A stretch of 39,191 nucleotides of DNA from a virus. The stretch is from the IMG/VR virus record IMGVR_UViG_3300000227_000014, positions 1 to 39,191 of that record; one strand, 5' to 3'. Both the position numbers and the translations under genes were made by a program. The notes under the pieces are model-generated. The model ran no database searches. It saw only the letters and a program-made list of their open reading frames with translations, and was not told where the DNA came from. Positions 905-35,877 of the stretch are shown piece after piece (the stretch's first letter is position 1; each line of letters starts with the position of its first letter).

Positions 905-1345
905 ATGCAGAAGTACACTGTTCTTAATAAAGGCGTGGAAACGCCTTTTGTGGGTAAAATTCTTGCCACAACCGACACGAAAAAGACCGATAATTGTCCG
1001 GTATGGACAGAGTTTGAGATTTATTTACGCGATGATAATACTTATGTGGTGAATGTACTGCGTAAATACATTTCAGGCGAAAGCAACGGCAGATCGTTCT
1101 TTTGCAGCGACCTTTACGCAGTGCAAAATTGCCTCGGGCACCCAATTTATCGTAGAGTGGCTTTCCGCGCGCAAATGTGTTACAACTTCGCTCGCAAGGC
1201 GCTTATAGCTGATGGAGTCATACAGGCACACGAATACCCGCTGACACTTGACGCAGAAGACAGGCCGGCCATGATTACACCAGAGCAGAAGCGTGATTTA
1301 ACCGAGATTTACGATGAAGATGATGAGTTTGATTTTACCGAATAA
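905..1345 (+). CDS. Hypothetical early phage protein, 146 aa
   Basis: I do not recognise the family. A ribosome binding site (AAGGCGGTG) precedes the ATG. The protein is soluble, contains several Cys residues without clear metal spacing, and ends in a very acidic tail (EIYDEDDEFDFTE). It sits directly upstream of the exonuclease gene, 14 bases from it, so it is probably co-transcribed with the recombination module. An acidic-tailed small protein there could be an accessory or DNA-mimic factor, but that is only a guess. Confidence 0.75.
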   Translation: MQKYTVLNKGVETPFVGKILATTDTKKTDNCPVWTEFEIYLRDDNTYVVNVLRKYISGESNGRSFFCSDLYAVQNCLGHPIYRRVAFRAQMCYNFARKALIADGVIQAHEYPLTLDAEDRPAMITPEQKRDLTEIYDEDDEFDFTE

Positions 1346-1359
1346 AAAAGAGGTGCTAA

Positions 1360-2154
1360 GTGATTCAGAAAATGAGTGATAATGAGTATTTCGCCCATAA
1401 AGGCATTAGCCAAACCTTCCTCAAGGCGTTCAGGCGTTCGCCGGCTCATGCTTTGTGGCAGCTAAAACACCCGCAAGAGCCAAGTTACGCAATGCAGGTC
1501 GGCACTTGCCTGCACGCGCTAATACTGGAGAGCAAGCGGGTGTTTGTTGCTTTACCAGAGAGCGCAAAGGGCAATAGTGCTGCTGCGAAAGCTGTTAAGA
1601 CTGAGTTTTATCTTGAACATGCGGGCAAAATCATACTTTCAGCCGAAGACGCAGCCAAGGTTGAGAGTATGGCCGAAAGTGTGTTGAACCACTCCGGAGC
1701 GCGTGCAATCCTTGATTTAGCCGGAGAATCGGAACTGCCGATATTCTGGAGCGAAAACGGGCTGGAAATGAAAGGGAAGATTGATCGCGTCAATCCACTT
1801 GGAGTGATTGATATAAAGACCACAAAAGACGCAAGGTTGAGCGAGTTTGCCAAGTCTGTTTATAACTATGGCTATCACGTTCAGGCGGCGCATTACTTGG
1901 CAGGGGCAGCGGCTAACGGGCTTCCCGCTGATGATTTTATTATTATTGCAGTCGAAAACGAAGCACCATACTGCACCGCACTACGCAAAATCGACCACGT
2001 ATCAATCATGGAAGGAGAACAAGAAAGGCAAGAGTTAATAGCGAAATATAAGCAATGTGTGGAAACAAATCACTGGCCGGGTTATAATGACGAAATCGAA
2101 ACCGTGTCAATACCAAAATGGGGTTTTAAACATATCATAAACGAGGAGTATTAA
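1360..2154 (+). CDS. RecE-like PD-(D/E)XK exonuclease, 264 aa
   Basis: Probable exodeoxyribonuclease VIII-type 5'-3' nuclease making 3' single-stranded tails for phage recombination. Motifs in order: GTCLH (residues 48-52), a glutamate before IFW (about 125), KIDRV with D142, DIKTT with D151 and K153 (the D-x-K core), and QAAHY (175-179). This is the usual order in RecE C-terminal/PDDEXK-like phage nucleases (DUF3799 type). The start is GTG at 1360, with AGAGGTG at ideal spacing; the next ATG (1372) is too far from that site. It is followed after one base by the putative annealing protein and then SSB, a typical exonuclease-annealase-SSB set. Confidence 0.85.
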   Translation: MIQKMSDNEYFAHKGISQTFLKAFRRSPAHALWQLKHPQEPSYAMQVGTCLHALILESKRVFVALPESAKGNSAAAKAVKTEFYLEHAGKIILSAEDAAKVESMAESVLNHSGARAILDLAGESELPIFWSENGLEMKGKIDRVNPLGVIDIKTTKDARLSEFAKSVYNYGYHVQAAHYLAGAAANGLPADDFIIIAVENEAPYCTALRKIDHVSIMEGEQERQELIAKYKQCVETNHWPGYNDEIETVSIPKWGFKHIINEEY

Positions 2155-2155
2155 A

Positions 2156-3103
2156 ATGGAAGAAAATAAACAGATGACTACCAACGGCACTGAACTGGCC
2201 GCAACCGCTTCGGCAGCGATGGCAAAGGCTGAGATTGAATCGGCTTATATCATGGCAATGCGCAAGCCGCGCTCATGGGCTGACGTGAGAGCTAAGATTA
2301 TTGCGGCATGTGAGCGCCCCGTATTCGCGATGAAGGCCGAATACGCAAAGCCGATGGGGAAAGACAAAATCAGCGGGCCGTCTATTCGCTTTGCCGAAAC
2401 CGTCATACAGGCGGCAGGCAATATCAAAACGTCTGCAACCGTGATTTATGATGACGAGAATATCAGAAAAGTGCATGTGCAGGTTATTGATCTTGAAAAT
2501 AACATCAGCTATGGCAAAGAAATCACGTTGCAGAAAACCGTTGAACGCTCATACTTGAAACAGGGGCAAGAGCCGCTTTCTACGCGCCTGAACAGTTACG
2601 GCAAAATGGTTTATATCGTGCCCGCGACCGAAGATGAACTACTAGTTAAGCAGGCAGCACAGGAAAGCAAAATCATCAGAACTTGCGGCCTTCGCATGAT
2701 TCCGCAGGACATCGTAGATGAGGCTATGGAAGTTGCACGCAATACCCGCCGGAAGAACATTGACCCGAAAGCTGAAACAAACAAGATTCTTGATGCTTTT
2801 GCAAAAATCGGCGTTAAACCTTCTGACATTTCGAGCTACCTGAAAAAACCGATTGAGCAGATTGTGGCCGCTGACATTGATGATTTGCGGCAGATTTATA
2901 CCGCGCTAAAAGACGGCGAGGCGCGTTGGTCTGACTTTTTGGAAGATGCTACCATCGTTGATGGTAGCATCAAAGAAGATGCAAACGCAAAACTTGCAAG
3001 ATTGATAAAAGAATCTGATGCAAAAAAGCTGGTTGATAAGCCTGCCGAGACAGCTGACGCAGACCCGAAGGCCGCCGAAATATCGGAAAAGAAAGGAAAA
3101 TAA
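2156..3103 (+). CDS. Putative single-strand annealing/recombination protein, 315 aa
   Basis: Belongs to a conserved phage family marked by GPSIRFAE (about residues 74-81) and by KTVER and RLNSYG segments. I know the family only as hypothetical phage proteins lying beside exonucleases. The gene begins one base after the exonuclease stop and is followed by SSB, so a RecT/Erf-like annealing role is the best contextual guess; I cannot show the fold. The C-terminus is charged and low-complexity (Ala/Lys/Glu), like a flexible tail. A 12-bp-arm inverted repeat with a 3-nt loop lies in the coding region (2945-2971). Confidence 0.6.
   Translation: MEENKQMTTNGTELAATASAAMAKAEIESAYIMAMRKPRSWADVRAKIIAACERPVFAMKAEYAKPMGKDKISGPSIRFAETVIQAAGNIKTSATVIYDDENIRKVHVQVIDLENNISYGKEITLQKTVERSYLKQGQEPLSTRLNSYGKMVYIVPATEDELLVKQAAQESKIIRTCGLRMIPQDIVDEAMEVARNTRRKNIDPKAETNKILDAFAKIGVKPSDISSYLKKPIEQIVAADIDDLRQIYTALKDGEARWSDFLEDATIVDGSIKEDANAKLARLIKESDAKKLVDKPAETADADPKAAEISEKKGK
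2945..2971. repeat. 12-bp-arm inverted repeat inside a gene
   Basis: GATGCTACCATC (2945-2956), loop GTT, GATGGTAGCATC (2960-2971); the arms are perfectly complementary. It encodes DATIVDGSI in the putative annealing protein. No T-run follows, so it is not a terminator. Confidence 0.85.
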
Positions 3104-3107
3104 GCAA

Positions 3108-3350
3108 ATGCGGGGTAGGCTTGCCCCGCTTATTTACACCATGAGAAAAATCGAACAGGACATTCTGAACATACTAAGAGACGACTGCTACATGACCCGC
3201 AAGGTGATTATGAAGCGCACCGGCAGAAGCAAAACGCCAGTTTATGATGCTATTGCGTCGCTATTGGACGCCGATTTGATCGATGAAACTCGCGTGGTTA
3301 CGCTTGATAGCAACCGAATTGAGAAAGCGTATATGAAGATAATCCAATGA
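3108..3350 (+). CDS. Small winged-helix DNA-binding protein, 80 aa
   Basis: The C-terminal 65 residues read as a helix-turn-helix/winged-helix: MRKIEQDILNIL, then MTRKVIMKRTGRSKTPVY as turn and recognition helix, then AIASLLDADLI and a short beta wing. Start 3108 is preferred because AAGGAAA lies about ten bases upstream, overlapping the previous gene's end; ATG 3141 has no ribosome site. It sits between the putative annealing protein and SSB. A local regulator is likely; the target is unknown. Confidence 0.65.
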   Translation: MRGRLAPLIYTMRKIEQDILNILRDDCYMTRKVIMKRTGRSKTPVYDAIASLLDADLIDETRVVTLDSNRIEKAYMKIIQ

Positions 3351-3377
3351 ATAGCAAGAAAAAGATGAGGGTAATAA

Positions 3378-3749
3378 ATGAATAAAATAATAGTAACGGG
3401 CTGCCTTGGCAGAGATGCAGAATTGAAAGTTTTGCCAAGCGGCAAAAACGTCCTTGAATTTTCGATCGCCGTAAACAGCGGATCCGGCGACAATAGAAAG
3501 CCTTCCTGGTGGAAGGCGAAGCTGTTCGGCGATAGGGCCGCGAAACTTGTAAAACACTTTGTAAAAGGCACAAAACTGATGATCGAAGGCGTGCCGGAAT
3601 TGCGCGAGTACGAAGCCAAAGACGGCAGCAAGAGAATCAGCCCCGAAATTTTCATGGGCGATTTTGAATTTATTGGCGGCAAGGGGTCCGAATCGAGTCC
3701 TGTCGCGCCCGCTGATGTCGGGGCAGATGATTCGAGTGTGCCGTTCTGA
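3378..3749 (+). CDS. ssb: Single-stranded DNA-binding protein (SSB), 123 aa
   Basis: OB-fold SSB. The N-terminus (MNKIIVTGCLGRDAEL), the mid-sequence FSIAVN and the WWKAKLFGDRAAKL strand match bacterial and phage SSBs, and the protein ends in an acidic tip DDSSVPF comparable to the DDIPF tail that recruits partner proteins. The C-terminal linker is short, giving a protein smaller than host SSBs, as usual for phages. The ribosome site is GAGGG upstream of the ATG. It completes an exonuclease, putative annealase and SSB recombination set and would also coat replication intermediates. Confidence 0.93.
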   Translation: MNKIIVTGCLGRDAELKVLPSGKNVLEFSIAVNSGSGDNRKPSWWKAKLFGDRAAKLVKHFVKGTKLMIEGVPELREYEAKDGSKRISPEIFMGDFEFIGGKGSESSPVAPADVGADDSSVPF

Positions 3750-3752
3750 TTT

Positions 3753-3959
3753 ATGCAACGCAACCGCAGAGGCAGACCACAAAAGGGCAGTAAACGCCGC
3801 CGCATTTATGTTTGTGACACTGCCTTAATCAACCGCTCAATAATGCCGGACGAGGCTCTTGCAATGGTGCAAGGGCTGCCCGGCAGTTTATGGGCTAATG
3901 CAATTCCACGGCAAAAACGGCAAAGAAGCGGTATTCGAAAGGTCGATAACGAATTGTGA
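3753..3959 (+). CDS. Basic hypothetical protein, 68 aa
   Basis: Begins three bases after the SSB stop and ends in a GTGA overlap with the next gene, so translation is coupled to both neighbours. Very basic N-terminus (RRGRPQKGSKRRR), suggesting nucleic-acid binding. The middle (MPDEALAMVQGLPGSLW) is like a short helical segment. No known family recognised. Confidence 0.6.
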   Translation: MQRNRRGRPQKGSKRRRIYVCDTALINRSIMPDEALAMVQGLPGSLWANAIPRQKRQRSGIRKVDNEL

Positions 3960-4372
3960 GTAAATACAAAAACGGCAAAGTTGTCATCGACGGTATCAAG
4001 TTCGATTCGGGCGCAGAGGGAGAGCGATACAAGATTCTGAAGGCCAAAGAAAAAGCAGGATTAATTAAAAATCTTGAGTTACAGAAAACATACCCATTAC
4101 TTGTAAACGGCCTGAAAATATGCGATTACCGCGCTGATTTTGTTTATGAAGTTGGCGGCAAAACGGTTGTTGAGGATGTTAAAGGGCAACTGCATGATGT
4201 TTTCAAGCTGAAATACAAGCTGATGTATGCCTGTCATGGTATTATTTTGCTGATTACAAAAGCGCTTTATCGGACGATGAACAAAGTAAAGTATATCGTG
4301 GGCTTTGAGCAGAACAGTGACGGGCTTGTGCTGCCGAAAACGCCGAAAGCAAAGGGGAAAAAGGGGAAATGA
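3956..4372 (+). CDS. DUF1064 family nuclease-like protein, 138 aa
   Basis: Matches the DUF1064 pattern: FDSGAEGERYKIL near the N-terminus, LELQKTYPLLVNG, then YRADFVY and VVEDVKG, giving a D...ED-x-K arrangement typical of PD-(D/E)XK endonucleases. The family is common in phage replication regions and is thought to be a Holliday-junction or structure-specific nuclease, though that is unproven to my knowledge. Start GTG 3956 overlaps the upstream stop (GTGA), and the stop overlaps the next ATG (ATGA), so this is a tight operon. The C-terminal tail is lysine-rich. Confidence 0.8.
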   Translation: MSKYKNGKVVIDGIKFDSGAEGERYKILKAKEKAGLIKNLELQKTYPLLVNGLKICDYRADFVYEVGGKTVVEDVKGQLHDVFKLKYKLMYACHGIILLITKALYRTMNKVKYIVGFEQNSDGLVLPKTPKAKGKKGK

Positions 4373-4548
4373 AAAAGCAAAAACTGCAACCGATTGATTA
4401 TTACCGCATTTCAGAGCTACAAAAGCGCCGTGTTGCCCTTTGGAAACATGCGCATACTTTACCGGATAGCGACCCGAAAAAAGCTGAAATTATAGAAGCG
4501 GCGCAAAAAATATACGACGGTCTTGTGAAAATAGGCTTTGCGCCATGA
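4369..4548 (+). CDS. Small hypothetical protein, 59 aa
   Basis: The ATG overlaps the DUF1064 stop (ATGA) and its own TGA overlaps the next ATG in the same way, so it is translationally coupled on both sides. The translation begins MKKQKLQPIDYYRISELQKR and is mostly helical and charged, ending KIYDGLVKIGFAP. No family recognised. The double ATGA coupling makes it convincing as a gene despite its size. Confidence 0.65.
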   Translation: MKKQKLQPIDYYRISELQKRRVALWKHAHTLPDSDPKKAEIIEAAQKIYDGLVKIGFAP

Positions 4549-4922
4549 ATCATACTGCTGACGCGGTAAAGAACCATAAAAGCTGGATAACAAATAAAGA
4601 GTTTTTTGAACGCACCTTGAGTGATTACCGCGCCAAGTTTAACGGTGAAAAAGACGATTGTATCATCATTTTTGCCGATAAACGCACTGGCAATTTTAAT
4701 TACTCATCGAATACAGCTGAGGATAAGAATCTAACGCCGTTTGAGCTGACAGGCATACTTGAAGTAGTGAAACATGCGACCATCTCAGATGCTTATGTGG
4801 TTAATCTTTCTTGTCGTGACCCGAGCAAGATCCACAAGCTCCTTGTAGATCTTCAAAACGCTTTACGGCGGCCAATCTTTCAAGCTCAAAGAATATTGCG
4901 CCATCTTCAGGGTGCCGCTTAA
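4545..4922 (+). CDS. Hypothetical protein, 125 aa, overlapping an antisense gene
   Basis: Starts in an ATGA overlap with the 59-aa gene. The first 80 residues (FADKRTGNFNYSSNTAEDKN, then LTPFELTGILEVV) look like a genuine protein, with an alpha/beta character. The last 40 residues lie antisense to the end of the - strand membrane-protein gene (4801-4922) and look less natural. The simplest reading is a gene whose original 3' end was replaced when the - strand gene was inserted. Function unknown. Confidence 0.55.
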   Translation: MNHTADAVKNHKSWITNKEFFERTLSDYRAKFNGEKDDCIIIFADKRTGNFNYSSNTAEDKNLTPFELTGILEVVKHATISDAYVVNLSCRDPSKIHKLLVDLQNALRRPIFQAQRILRHLQGAA

Positions 4923-5175
4923 TGTGAATATCGGTTAGCTTGTTTGCTCGGGCTTCTGTCAGCAAATACCGATCAAGAAACAGTTCTCGCATGCTTGTTT
5001 CGTGCTTTTGTGTTTTTCTAGTCTGAAAAAATGCCCATATTGAGAAGATAAACACACACACAAGCATAATCGTAAGCCCGATGACGATGATTTTTTCTGG
5101 TGTTGCAAGTAGCATGAATGACGCGGCAATGCTACTGAGGATTTTGACAAGGATTCCGATATTCAAATCTTTCAC
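4801..5175 (-). CDS. Two-helix membrane protein (moron-like), 124 aa
   Basis: The only - strand gene inside the + strand early operon. It has two hydrophobic segments (IGILVKILSSIAASFMLLA and IIVIGLTIMLVCVFIFSIWAF) with a short turn, then a charged cytoplasmic-type tail ending GHDKKD. I chose GTG at 5175, which has GGAG eight bases upstream; the longer frame to 5250 would run through a candidate promoter. Single autonomous membrane-protein genes of this kind are often superinfection-exclusion or lysogeny-conversion proteins, which is inference here. Its 3' end overlaps the convergent + gene by 122 bases. Confidence 0.7.
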   Translation of the reverse strand: MKDLNIGILVKILSSIAASFMLLATPEKIIVIGLTIMLVCVFIFSIWAFFQTRKTQKHETSMRELFLDRYLLTEARANKLTDIHIKRHPEDGAIFFELERLAAVKRFEDLQGACGSCSGHDKKD

Positions 5176-5207
5176 GCTCTGCGCTCCAAATAGGGTATAG
5201 TTTGAGT

Positions 5208-5237
5208 ATATCACAAAAACTTTTTTATTCCAAACAA
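5208..5237 (-). promoter_or_regulatory. Candidate promoter of the - strand membrane gene
   Basis: On the - strand, TTGTTT (5237-5232), 18-nt A/T-rich spacer, TGATAT (5213-5208). Transcription would start near 5200, upstream of the GGAG/GTG start at 5175. Only a partial match to sigma-70 consensus. Confidence 0.4.
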
Positions 5238-5269
5238 TTATCGCTTGCATCAGAAATCAGATTGTGTTA

Positions 5270-5284
5270 TCCATAAGTTATGGA
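5270..5284. promoter_or_regulatory. 15-bp palindrome upstream of the 103-aa gene, possible operator
   Basis: TCCATAA-G-TTATGGA is a perfect 7-bp inverted repeat between the divergent - strand gene and the gene at 5310. A weak + strand TTGCAT/TATCCA pair (17-nt spacer) overlaps it. Operator function is inference. Confidence 0.35.
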
Positions 5285-5309
5285 ACGAAACTTAAAAAGA
5301 GGTGTTATT

Positions 5310-5621
5310 ATGAATAACGGGCAGATAGTCAGCTACAAATGTCAGTGGCTTGTGCTCTACAAAGCAGCAGGCAACTTCTTGTTGCTTGATTTCGCAAGCT
5401 ACATGGAAATCTACAACAACGCCTGGACGGCTGAAGACGTGCTGGCAAATGATCGCTTTCTGGCCAATAGTATTGGTGTGATTGGTGCGATCACACCAAG
5501 CCTTGAGGATTCTCTGGGCGGTTTTGCTCATAAGAAAGACATTATCGCCACAGATCAGCGAATCGCCACAGATCAGCGAGTAGAGGAAAAGACCTATGAC
5601 AGGGGGGGGTATTGTGGATAA
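5310..5621 (+). CDS. Hypothetical protein, 103 aa, with hexapeptide duplication and poly-G 3' end
   Basis: Start 5310 has AAAGAGGTG at good spacing; the in-frame ATG at 5280 lacks one. No family recognised. The C-terminal part carries a perfect 18-bp tandem duplication (5544-5579) encoding IATDQR twice, and the gene body contains a 10-bp-arm inverted repeat (5473-5499). Its last codons pass through a G8 tract (5602-5609) and overlap the first 26 bases of thyX in another frame. Loss of one G would fuse it to ThyX. Confidence 0.6.
   Translation: MNNGQIVSYKCQWLVLYKAAGNFLLLDFASYMEIYNNAWTAEDVLANDRFLANSIGVIGAITPSLEDSLGGFAHKKDIIATDQRIATDQRVEEKTYDRGGYCG
5473..5499. repeat. 10-bp-arm inverted repeat inside a gene
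   Basis: TTGGTGTGAT (5473-5482), 7-nt loop, ATCACACCAA (5490-5499), arms perfectly complementary, within the 103-aa gene. Confidence 0.8.
5544..5579 (+). repeat. 18-bp perfect tandem repeat
   Basis: Two copies of ATCGCCACAGATCAGCGA back to back (5544-5561, 5562-5579), in frame, duplicating IATDQR. A clean recent slippage or duplication product. Confidence 0.95.
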
Positions 5622-6246
5622 AATTATTGTCGTTTTAAATCATGTCACTCCTGAATTTGTGGTCAATGAAGCTGTTGGCATGCCCTACGACACGCAGCCA
5701 AGTAGCGAGCTGACTAGCAAGGTTATCGGCATAAAAAAGCACCTTTCTTGCGCCGAGCACATCATTATGAACTGGCACGTTGTCGGGGCGAGTCGTCTTG
5801 AGTTGCAAGAGCACATGCGGCATAGAATGGCAAGCCCTACCGTGAAAAGCACCAGATACACGATTGATAAAGACTTTTTGCGTGATTATGCGCTGAATAC
5901 CGAAGATTTGTTTGTTACACCTGATTTAAAGAATCTGCCAGTCGAACAGGCCGCAATACTTAACGCGCATTTATCATTCAGCGCCGTTTCTGCAATCAGA
6001 GCCATTAAAGAGTGCAAGCATGCGAAAATACCCAACGATTATATCAAGTATCTCTTGCCAGAAAGCCTGAGAACTAGCTTTTCGTGGACAATCAATCTAC
6101 GTTCGTTTATCAATTTTCTTAAACTAAGAACCGATAAACATGCACACTTTGAGATTAGGCACGTCGCAAATGAAATGCGGCGCAAGATTAGCGAGAGTTT
6201 GGCTGCGAAGTATGTTGATGAGCTTCTTAATCAGATGGGATTGTAA
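5596..6246 (+). CDS. thyX: Flavin-dependent thymidylate synthase ThyX, 216 aa
   Basis: Makes dTMP from dUMP using FAD, NADPH and methylenetetrahydrofolate. The ThyX signature RHRMAS is at residues 75-80, followed by STRY (85-88), i.e. the RHRxxS...SxRY motif. Further family features are TINLRSFINFLKLR (165-178) and a terminal EIR (186-188). The length is normal for ThyX. The start may be ATG 5596 (GAGG nine bases upstream) or GTG 5614, which would use the G8 tract as ribosome site; both are in frame. It is the last + strand gene before the bidirectional terminator. With the dNTP-hydrolysing fusion at 28.8 kb it suggests the phage adjusts the host deoxynucleotide pool. Confidence 0.95.
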   Translation: MTGGGIVDKIIVVLNHVTPEFVVNEAVGMPYDTQPSSELTSKVIGIKKHLSCAEHIIMNWHVVGASRLELQEHMRHRMASPTVKSTRYTIDKDFLRDYALNTEDLFVTPDLKNLPVEQAAILNAHLSFSAVSAIRAIKECKHAKIPNDYIKYLLPESLRTSFSWTINLRSFINFLKLRTDKHAHFEIRHVANEMRRKISESLAAKYVDELLNQMGL

Positions 6247-28789: not shown

Positions 28790-29614
28790 ATGATGCAAAA
28801 TACCGACCCGAAACATGGCGGCCTTCGCTACAATGAAGGCAAGTTGCGCTATGACCTGATTTGCCCTGAGCAGTTAAAAGGGCTTGCAAGCGTCTATACA
28901 TACGGCGCAAAGAAATATTTGCCGCACAACTGGTCAAGAGGACAGGCATACTCAACAATCTTAGCCAGTCTGAAACGCCACATTGCCGCCTTTGAAGCGG
29001 GCGAAGATTACGACGCAGAAAGCGACTGCCATCACATGGCTCACGCAATGTGGAATTGTGGCGCGTTGATTAGCTTCGCCAAGTTCTATCCACAAGGCGA
29101 TGATCGCCGTCACTCGTGGCAGAGAATCCCGCGCATTGGCCTCGATATAGACGGAACTATTTGCGCATGGGTTCAAGCCTATTGTGCCCGATACAACCTG
29201 TCAATTCCACATTGCTGGAACTTCGACCGCCATTTTGCCGAAAGAATGGCCGAACTGAAAGAAGATAAAGGCTTCTGGATAAACCTTGAGCCGCTAATCA
29301 AAGCTGAGCAACTGCCCTTTGAACCCGCCGCTTACATTACAAACCGCACAATACCGAATGAATGGACGCAGGAATGGCTTGATTTGCATGGTTTCCCAGT
29401 TGCTCCAACAATTACCGTTGCAAGTGACTCTGAGAAGGCCGAGCATATCACAAAGTTAGGGCTAGACTGGTTCTGCGATGACAGGTTTGAGACGTTCACA
29501 GAACTCAACAAGCGCGGTATATGCTGCTTCTTGATGGACGCAAAGCATAATCAGCGATATAATGTTGGCTCCAAGCGTATCATATCGCTGGTCGAGCTGA
29601 AGGAAAGATGGTAA
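28790..29614 (+). CDS. Fused dNTP diphosphohydrolase - HAD 5'-deoxynucleotidase, 274 aa
   Basis: Two enzymes in one chain. Residues 1-100 match the dATP/dGTP diphosphohydrolase N-terminal family: GGLRYNEGKLRYDLICPEQL, YGAKKYLPHNW, and E77-x-x-C-H-H-x-x-H, an all-alpha MazG-like metal site. Residues 110-274 are a HAD phosphatase of the 5'(3')-deoxyribonucleotidase type, with D119-I-D121-G-T, T184 in YITNR, K216 and the D230-D231 acid pair. Together they could turn a dNTP into dNMP and then nucleoside. It has GGAGG five bases from ATG. It lies alone on the + strand within late genes, pointing to separate timing. Confidence 0.85.
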   Translation: MMQNTDPKHGGLRYNEGKLRYDLICPEQLKGLASVYTYGAKKYLPHNWSRGQAYSTILASLKRHIAAFEAGEDYDAESDCHHMAHAMWNCGALISFAKFYPQGDDRRHSWQRIPRIGLDIDGTICAWVQAYCARYNLSIPHCWNFDRHFAERMAELKEDKGFWINLEPLIKAEQLPFEPAAYITNRTIPNEWTQEWLDLHGFPVAPTITVASDSEKAEHITKLGLDWFCDDRFETFTELNKRGICCFLMDAKHNQRYNVGSKRIISLVELKERW

Positions 29615-33855: not shown

Positions 33856-35877
33856 TTAAAGATCGTAAGTTTGCACAGAATTAGAGCTATCAACGGGGAA
33901 TTCTTCTGTAACATAGTAGCCAAGAGCCGCAGAATTAGAAACTAAACAACCATTTGCCAATAAAAAACAACCGTTTTCAACTGTCGGACAAAATGTTTGT
34001 ATTGTTTTGTGTGGCACGACGCTTATTACTTGCAATGATGCAAGACCGTTTGCAGAATTTTTGCGATTTGTGCGCAAGCGTTTTAAACAAAACTTGGCAA
34101 TAAGCGCACGCAACTTCGATATATAGTTCCTCTGAATTAACACTTTTTCATCTAGTAAAGCGGCATTCTTTGGAGCAATATTTGTTTGCAACATATTTAT
34201 TTGCTGAAAATTCTTTACCGCAAGTCGGGCAAGTTTTGATGTCTTGCGGAATGGTTGTCTTTCGTTATTATGAAATAACTCATTATACAAGAAATCCCCT
34301 TCAATGTCAATGGCCTTTTTCCAGCCAGAAAGCGTTAAAAACTCATGAGTTGGAGTGCAAATAATTTCTTCGCCGTTAGACAAAAGCACTTTTACTGTTG
34401 GCTTTATCCCAGTAGGCTTCCCACCGTTAATATAGTTGTGCATTTTCCCGTCGTAACCTTTGATTTTGCCAGAATCAGAAATGCTATCAAGTCGCTGAAT
34501 GCCACGATTAGTTTGCACCAAAGTATCGCCAGAAAAACATTCATGTCCAATCATCTTATTTTTCTTCTCGTCAATTTCTCCTGAGCCGCCTTCTAACAAC
34601 GAAAGCTGCTCCAAATCCTCTATCAACTTAGGAGCTGCAACGGCATCAACCATCATGCGACGAACGCCAGTAACCGAACAAAACCGGCTATTCATGGAGT
34701 TAATACGCTTTTTTATTGGCGGGTTTGCGCGTGGATATTTATAGCTAATTCTATTTGCAAACTCTGTATTTTTGAAGAAAGCCTTAATTAAATCCCAATC
34801 TGAGCCGCTTACCGCGCTCGCGGTCTTGTTGCCACCAGCGGCATCGCCATAGCATATTATTTCGCCTTTGTGGTGCTTCCAGTCGTTGTATAGGCGCTGA
34901 CACACGATTAAGGTGTTAGAATTTTGAGGGATCCATACTTCGCCGATAACTCCGGTGCCGATAACTGGCTGTTTAAGCCAAACACCGTTATGTAGCACTT
35001 CTTCAAACTGGCCGGGTAGTTGCTGCTCTTGGCAAACTACCGCGATACCAGGCGAGACGTTAAAATCGAAGCAAAATATCAGCGGCTTGCTGGGATTATG
35101 CCATAACTCGTGCTTATAATTTTCACGGGTAAAAGCATAATAAACGCGCCCCGTAAAGTTTTCGAAGCTGGCTTCAAATTCCTGAGCAAAAGAGCGGGAA
35201 TCCATTCTATCTTGGAATTTTTTCACCTCAATCGGACTCATTACCTCGGCGCTTTTCCAGGTGAAAAAATCCCATTCATCAGGAAACTTTAAAGAGTTTT
35301 TACTTATCTCGTAAAGGTATGCCAGCCCATTAGGAACGCCAGTATACATTGCCCATGCGCCACGGTCGATAAACATGGGGTCAATATGCTCTTCCCACGC
35401 GGAACGCTTAATATCGTCGACTTCATCCGCCAGAAGGCCGTCAATCGGCGCGCCTTCTATGCGTGCTGGGTTGTCTAATCCTGCGACAACGATAGTCGCC
35501 CCGTTTAGTAAATAAATTTCGTGCTTGCTTATGTTAGGTTTCCTTGCCATGAGCTGAGGCGGTATCATGGCTAAAAAATCACTCCAATACACATTGACAG
35601 ACTGCTTTTGAGTTGGGCAAGCTGCGATGTATCGCGGGTTGATAAAGTTAGAACCCTGCCATATGCGCTTTAAAAATTTGCGCTTTGCTCTTTCTGTTTT
35701 GCCTTCGATGAATCGTCTTTGCCCTTGCCGATTAAAGCAAGGGCATCAACGACCCGACCGCCTTCCAGCGGCCACCACCTCATAGCGTTTGTTCGAATTA
35801 GTAAAGCGTACTCCCTCTGGATTGTCAATCATGGGCCACAAACGGCGTTTCCATCGCGGTATTGATTGTTGTGTCAT
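33856..35877 (-). CDS. terL: Terminase large subunit, interrupted by a 51-nt P-loop insertion and by an intein
   Basis: Packaging ATPase/nuclease. From ATG 35877 the frame reads 42 codons to VVAAGRRSG, then meets CGT TGA inside a 51-nt insertion (35701-35751), and resumes in the same frame as KTERAKRKFLKRIW, restoring Walker A GRRSGKT if the insertion is skipped. Walker B is LLADEVDD. Nuclease residues include the Asp of FCFDFNV and of ICYGD. An intein (33934-34539) splits GHE/SAALGYY. Removing insertion and intein leaves about 454 residues, a normal TerL. The third nuclease acid, normally SDALGY, is Ala. The ribosome site is weak; TerS lies 16 bases upstream. Without a bypass mechanism this would be a broken gene. 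Confidence 0.9.
33934..34539 (-). other. Intein in TerL, 202 aa, no homing endonuclease domain visible
   Basis: Starts at Cys in CFSGDTLVQTNRGIQRLDSI (block A) and has block B IICTPTHEFLTLSGW with the TxxH residues. It ends with GCFLLANGCLVSN before Ser (blocks F/G, terminal Asn, +1 Ser). The usual penultimate His is Ser. The middle ~90 residues are basic (LRALIAKFCLKRLRTNRK) with no LAGLIDADG or HNH motif visible to me. It is inserted in the conserved terminase nuclease motif. The gene is open through it, so protein splicing is expected. Confidence 0.9.
35701..35751 (-). other. 51-nt insertion with stop codon and hairpin in the TerL Walker A motif (putative translational bypass element)
   Basis: Between GGT (last Gly of RRSG) and AAA (Lys of KT). 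The insertion reads CGT TGA, then stem TGCCCTTGC, 8-nt loop, GCAAGGGCA, ~17 nt more, and ends in GGC. Length is divisible by three, but UGA blocks simple reading. Take-off GGT and landing GGC can be read by one tRNA-Gly. This layout (matched Gly codons, early stop, immediate hairpin, ~50 nt) is like T4 gene 60. Confidence 0.75.

Follow-up and report, generated by a model that had tools for sequence, protein, structure and literature searches.

How is one continuous terminase (TerL) obtained from a gene whose Walker A motif is divided by a 51-nt insert with a stop codon? The question is raised by terL on the minus strand of the viral DNA analyzed here (IMG/VR record IMGVR_UViG_3300000227_000014, positions 1 to 39,191; this whole stretch of 39,191 nt is referred to as the window). 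The gene opens with ATG at 35877, and its 5′ coding part of 42 codons (MTQQSIPRWKRRLWPMIDNPEGVRFTNSNKRYEVVAAGRRSG; 35752 to 35877), a reading frame conserved in the relatives L001 and L122 described below, ends with EVVAAGRRSG. Its last Gly codon, GGT (35754 to 35752), encodes the last residue ahead of the Walker A Lys and is followed by CGT (35751 to 35749) and an in-frame TGA (35748 to 35746). The conserved KTERAKRKF restarts in the same frame at AAA 35700, 51 nt past GGT, and the insert that parts GRRSG from KTERAKRK within Walker A closes with a second Gly codon, GGC (35703 to 35701), directly before this AAA. The 3′ coding part (33856 to 35700) contains Walker B, the nuclease motifs, and an in-frame intein. 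A sequence-only reading of the window had taken the insert for a bypass element, over which ribosomes hop from GGT to GGC to give full-length TerL; the coordinates, the stop codon, the stem, and the Gly codons on which it was built are correct on rereading of the sequence.

The same virus is found in a second record, DYKF01000004.1, with one mismatch over the shared stretch; this contig comes from a MAG whose title is Caldithrix sp., the host assignment being by binning only. A peptide-based scan of IMG/VR yielded L001, a 74-kb viral contig whose TerL is 65% identical to that of the window and whose insert of 52 nt, with a hairpin of the same kind, lies between GRRSG and KSERAKRK, the downstream frame being a different one. 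Scanning for coding DNA of GK[TS]ERAKRK, which matched 36 contigs, revealed a third lineage (L116/L122) with a TerL 54% identical to that of the window and 56% identical to that of L001 and with an insert of 55 nt at exactly the same codon boundary. In sum, the same Gly|Lys boundary is interrupted in three TerL lineages, by 51, 52, or 55 nt, with both coding flanks intact, and the L001 and L122 lineages come from metagenomes other than that of the window. The Walker A motif is uninterrupted in about 110 distinct other TerLs that we collected. The search for the same element in related terL genes, which the sequence-only reading had suggested, was therefore positive in L001 and L122, and an isolated assembly error, against which it had advised a check, is countered by the second record of the virus and by the two other lineages.

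Both parts of the gene bear the mark of selection on the protein. Among the three lineages, the 3′ part has pS values of 0.77 to 0.82 and pN values of 0.23 to 0.32, the last 33 codons ahead of the gap have a pS of 0.81 to 0.90 and a pN of 0.17 to 0.30, and the first 35 codons past the gap have a similar pattern. The first in-frame start codon (ATG, GTG, or TTG) after the gap is codon 37 in the window and codon 14 in both L001 and L122, and KxERAKRKF is conserved although it lies upstream of any of these. Since no usual start can reach this conserved stretch, the 5′ and 3′ parts must be joined into one TerL, and the gap splits a frame whose two parts are selected as one protein, as in a T4-type bypass gene. 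The element is very probably an RNA feature with a function, and TerL very probably a single protein made around it. The codons that open the 3′ part (AAA ACA/TCA GAA AGA GC; 35687 to 35700 in the window) are near-identical at the DNA level in the three carriers, in contrast to the saturated synonymous sites elsewhere, and are possibly part of the element.

The insert has a pronounced structure. In the window, 101 nt fold with a minimum free energy of −41.2 kcal/mol (z = −4.4; 0 of 200 shuffles were as good). The take-off hairpin (35711 to 35754), which matches the covariance model with 57.8 bits, has 19 paired positions, 17 of them paired in the window copy, and a 6-nt loop (35730 to 35735) that reads UUAAUC in the window, UUAAUU in L001, and UUGAUU in L122. 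It starts at GGT, and the putative take-off codon is located inside its 5′ arm in all three phages. The 9-bp stem straight after the UGA noticed in the sequence-only reading (TGCCCTTGC/GCAAGGGCA) is real and is the top of this longer hairpin. The three hairpins align gap-free over 44 nt with the loop consensus UURAUY, and standard pairs, read in the terL sense, occupy 97.3% of 75 cells compared to 41 to 48% in slid registers. Changes on both sides are seen in 10 of the 19 stem pairs, a covariation signal that comes from three lineages with few independent changes. The outer stem is almost wholly rewritten among the lineages, as is the top of the stem in L122, and the tops of the window and L001 hairpins are nearly identical. 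In the antisense reading, 74.7% of the cells are paired. The drop is due to several pairs that are G-U when read in the direction of terL, and it argues that the hairpin is selected as RNA of the coding strand. The 3′ flank, AUUCAUCGAAGG, has no U-run, as an intrinsic terminator would, and a repeated palindrome does not fit the single copy.

A second stem-loop (35756 to 35773 in the window), formed in the minimum free energy fold by the codons of AAGRR, stands just upstream of the take-off hairpin in all three phages. It is stabler than about 94% of synonymous recodings in the window (P of about 0.06), 99.4% in L001 (P of about 0.006), and 98% in L122 (P of about 0.02), a test of moderate strength in lineages that are not independent; 37 intact TerLs, used as a control, were spread nearly evenly. 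The borders of the insert, GG...AAGG, are conserved and are brought to within 7 to 10 nt by the stem; in the window, the unpaired linker CAUCGAA (35704 to 35710) runs into the conserved AAGG and, with it, into the GGC at 35701 to 35703, the putative landing codon.

Taken together, the 51-nt segment is probably a conserved, noncoding translational bypass element inside terL, across which ribosomes jump. Ribosomes would translate up to the GGU Gly of Walker A (codon 42), where the hairpin that starts at this codon would block normal decoding and peptidyl-tRNA(Gly) would release GGU. The upstream stem-loop might then re-form behind the ribosome, and the long hairpin, once formed, would absorb almost the whole gap and leave 7 to 10 nt to cross. 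The tRNA would re-pair at GGC in the conserved AAGGN, and decoding would restart at AAA to give an intact GRRSG-KTER and a full-length terminase. The bypass idea of the sequence-only reading is much strengthened by the relatives with the same element, its frame-independent length, the covarying stem, and the coding flanks under purifying selection; that the ribosome performs the jump, instead of the segment being removed from the mRNA, and each single step of the jump are what we infer from this evidence.

Across the lineages, the ribosome would leave at GGY and land at the GGN within AAGGN (GGY to GGM). The take-off/landing pair is GGT/GGC in the window and in L001, for which the same tRNA is expected, and GGC/GGA in L122, a wobble mismatch; the idea of matched Gly codons therefore stands in two of the three lineages. 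The supposed stop next to the take-off codon has fared less well, since it is a property of the window only, one codon later than in T4, and is absent from that place in the relatives. The codons right after take-off are CGU (window), CUA (L001), and CCG (L122), none of which is a stop, and the first zero-frame stop in L001 and L122 is found in the hairpin loop. Of all Leu codons, CUA is used least in L001, but neither CCG nor CGU is rare, so that no consistently rare codon directly follows take-off in the three lineages. Basic residues (KRR) are present about 30 residues upstream in the window and L001; they are also present in L007, which is devoid of the element, and KRR was therefore not used as evidence for a nascent-peptide stimulator like KKYK of T4.

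The main rival to bypassing is excision of the segment from the mRNA and rejoining of its ends, catalyzed by RNA enzymes of the host or the phage or by the RNA itself. Frame independence, the sense-strand hairpin, and the GG...AAGG borders, which the stem brings so close together, would be explained just as well by such a tiny intron-like element. However, no Rfam family fits (the matches are at chance level and far below the gathering score), inspection revealed no pairing between exons or between borders like that of archaeal bulge-helix-bulge structures, and RtcB and RNA_ligase gave no match in the records of the three phages or in the virus-bearing MAG, all of them incomplete. The bias toward a stable upstream stem-loop would also be left unexplained, and 51 to 55 nt is far below the size of any self-splicing intron known to us. 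We regard it as unlikely that the hairpin is a minimal RNA element of about 50 nt of a new kind, removed from the mRNA or skipped by the transcription machinery; it would then be an intron-like unit far smaller than known bacterial introns, placed at an intein hotspot. A continuous gene would also result if some members of the population lost the segment from their DNA, through programmed excision or phase switching, but there are no recombinase-type flanking repeats beyond GG, the G-U pairs favor selection on RNA over DNA, and all five records contain only the filled form, so that this route appears highly unlikely.

A further reading has TerL consist of two separate chains, a short N-terminal peptide that stops inside the hairpin and a second protein initiated downstream, with function regained by reassembly or in trans; functional split genes are on record in phages (PMC2988022), and AAGG resembles a Shine-Dalgarno motif ahead of the 3′ part. 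This is quite improbable, since codons ahead of the first in-frame starts (37, 14, and 14 codons in) are conserved at the protein level and the Walker A Lys would be lost. That the insert marks a decaying, nonfunctional terL or an assembly error might be suspected from the downstream intein with its frame-shifted remnant of a zinc-binding nuclease, but the occurrence in three lineages and in two records of the same virus, the compensatory changes in the stem, and the saturated synonymous change with a conserved protein leave it only a very slight probability, and the relatives refute it as a general explanation. Finally, the window insert contains one UGA and has a length divisible by three; if this UGA were read through or reassigned, with or without a frameshift, a Walker A with 17 extra residues might result. 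We give this almost no credence, because Walker A would be destroyed and because the frame differs in L001 and L122, where readthrough alone cannot join the parts; the earlier judgment that code reassignment is unlikely is thereby upheld, and readthrough is rejected with it.

To our knowledge, efficient long-gap bypassing has essentially one well-studied prokaryotic case, gene 60 of phage T4. If bypassing is what happens in terL, this would be another such case, with an unrelated element of almost equal size in an essential packaging motor. The gap of gene 60, whose own sequence we checked, is 50 nt including the landing GGA, compared to 51, 52, and 55 nt counted with the landing codon here, and take-off is from GGA at codon 46, compared to codons 42 (window), 41 (L001), and 52 (L122). 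Both jumps lead from Gly to Gly, although the landing codon is not always identical to the take-off codon in terL. T4 has its take-off codon within a hairpin of 10 bp with a UUCG loop, and the gap there includes a long unpaired 3′ stretch, whereas in terL the take-off codon lies in the hairpin of 19 paired positions with a 6-nt loop, which fills the gap. The take-off stem-loop of gene 60 is accompanied by a 5′ stem-loop thought to push the ribosome forward and by a stop after take-off (PMC5009743). The second stem-loop just upstream is shared by the present element; the stop, a UAG directly after take-off in T4, has no conserved counterpart. The Shine-Dalgarno motif of gene 60, which plays a minor role (PMC5009743), is positioned 6 nt upstream of the landing site, whereas the conserved AAGG of terL overlaps the landing codon. 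Both gaps are in a highly conserved enzyme motif, DADHDG of a DNA topoisomerase subunit in T4 and Walker A here; the genes are different, and no similarity was detected between the two elements with covariance models. The element most probably represents a second type of long-gap bypass element, one that deviates from the strict T4 type in the adjacent stop and the landing-site motif. A full-text literature search of limited scope returned no report of it.

Bypassing has been proposed for the terminase of Streptomyces phage phiHau3 (PMC5009743). Its terL gap, TTACTCCGGT, is located exactly between the Walker A Gly and Lys (KGWG^KDPLLA), at the same place as the present element, and leads from GGC to GGT. 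It has only 10 nt, begins with UUA, is followed by a second 10-nt gap, lacks a large hairpin, and belongs to a different TerL type; it is thought to be related to UUA decoding in the host. Being 10 nt without a large hairpin, it is a parallel and not a homologue. In the phiHau3 record, the two gaps (2614 to 2623 and 2924 to 2933) both start with TTA and have synonymous flanks, GGC...GGT and TCT...TCC. In the byp/mbe elements of Magnusiomyces mitochondria, nucleotide blocks in coding sequence are skipped in translation and imperfect codon matches are allowed (PMC5009743). There, 81 sites are found in one organelle with relaxed mitochondrial decoding; the present element is not scattered in many copies but has one copy at one site per genome. 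We suggest that gaps after Gly in highly conserved enzyme motifs (DADHDG of the topoisomerase and, twice, Walker A of the terminase) are a recurring type, which automated gene calling may hide as broken genes. The natural variants of the terL element, which share the fold but not the stem sequence, the loop, the codon after take-off, or the landing codon, would show which features are truly needed.

The history of the element can be read from the TerL tree (FastTree), which has the topology (L122,(window,(L001,L007))) with supports of 1.0, 0.98, and 0.99; L007, nested in a clade whose other members have the hairpin, is intein bearing. The likeness of the hairpins among carriers tracks that of the TerLs, the hairpin motif occurs once in the window (0 expected), and the window, the 74-kb L001 record, and the MAG have one copy each. 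Because of the single copy per genome and the agreement of hairpin and TerL tree, the element looks old and vertically inherited and not recently mobile. Most simply, it would date to the clade ancestor and have been lost in L007, perhaps upon intein homing with conversion of flanking DNA. The earlier view of a selfish insertion thus finds no support, although the site is an intein hotspot.

Searches for further hairpin copies in phages and in 198 genomes of the phylum of the MAG returned the known copy and two weak matches of about 29 bits, L169 and L168, the latter lying in A/T-rich sequence close to the end of its contig, where no terminase was seen beside it. A TerL search in 393 genomes of that phylum found the known contig only, the pattern AAGGN-K[TS]E-x-A-KR matched 44 stretches in viral contigs with TerL only in the known lineages, blastn against phage records gave no match, and the exact hairpin core did not occur in any other viral contig.

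Inteins in or next to the TerL Walker A were observed in five cases (L007, 1768 to 4239; L018, 278 to 2920; L101/L120; L209; and L231), which makes this motif an intein hotspot in several distantly related phages. They occupy the same spot as the present element, within or just after GRRSGK, but are long, in frame, and removed from the protein, whereas the element, which has 51 to 55 nt and shifts the frame in two lineages, is unable to code for a splicing domain. A decayed intein as the origin of the insert was rejected, since no splicing motifs fit into 51 nt and the stem covaries. The second break in the terL of the window (33934 to 34539, minus strand) is an in-frame intein (GHE^CFSGD...LVSN^SAALG); a zinc-finger/HNH-like stretch in its middle is readable only in another frame, with a stop, and probably represents a homing domain that has decayed while the splicing frame was preserved. 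The TerLs of three further contigs (L203, L219, and L232) have, near the match start, KGRRSGGTE or KGRRAGGTE in place of AGRRSGKTE; the Walker A Lys seems to have been shifted from the loop end to the loop start.

Between terS and terL of L001 (2020 to 4829) are queC, a queD-type (PTPS) gene, a radical SAM gene (queE-like), and folE, which suggests 7-deazaguanine DNA modification, together with a gene for a 244-amino-acid protein without a Pfam match. The window has nucleotide-related genes at 905 to 6246 and 28790 to 29614 (both plus strand), including those for SSB, a PD-(D/E)XK nuclease, and a dATP/dGTP diphosphohydrolase, as well as a ThyX-type thymidylate synthase at 5596 to 6246 (plus strand) and a tRNA-Tyr at 507 to 591.
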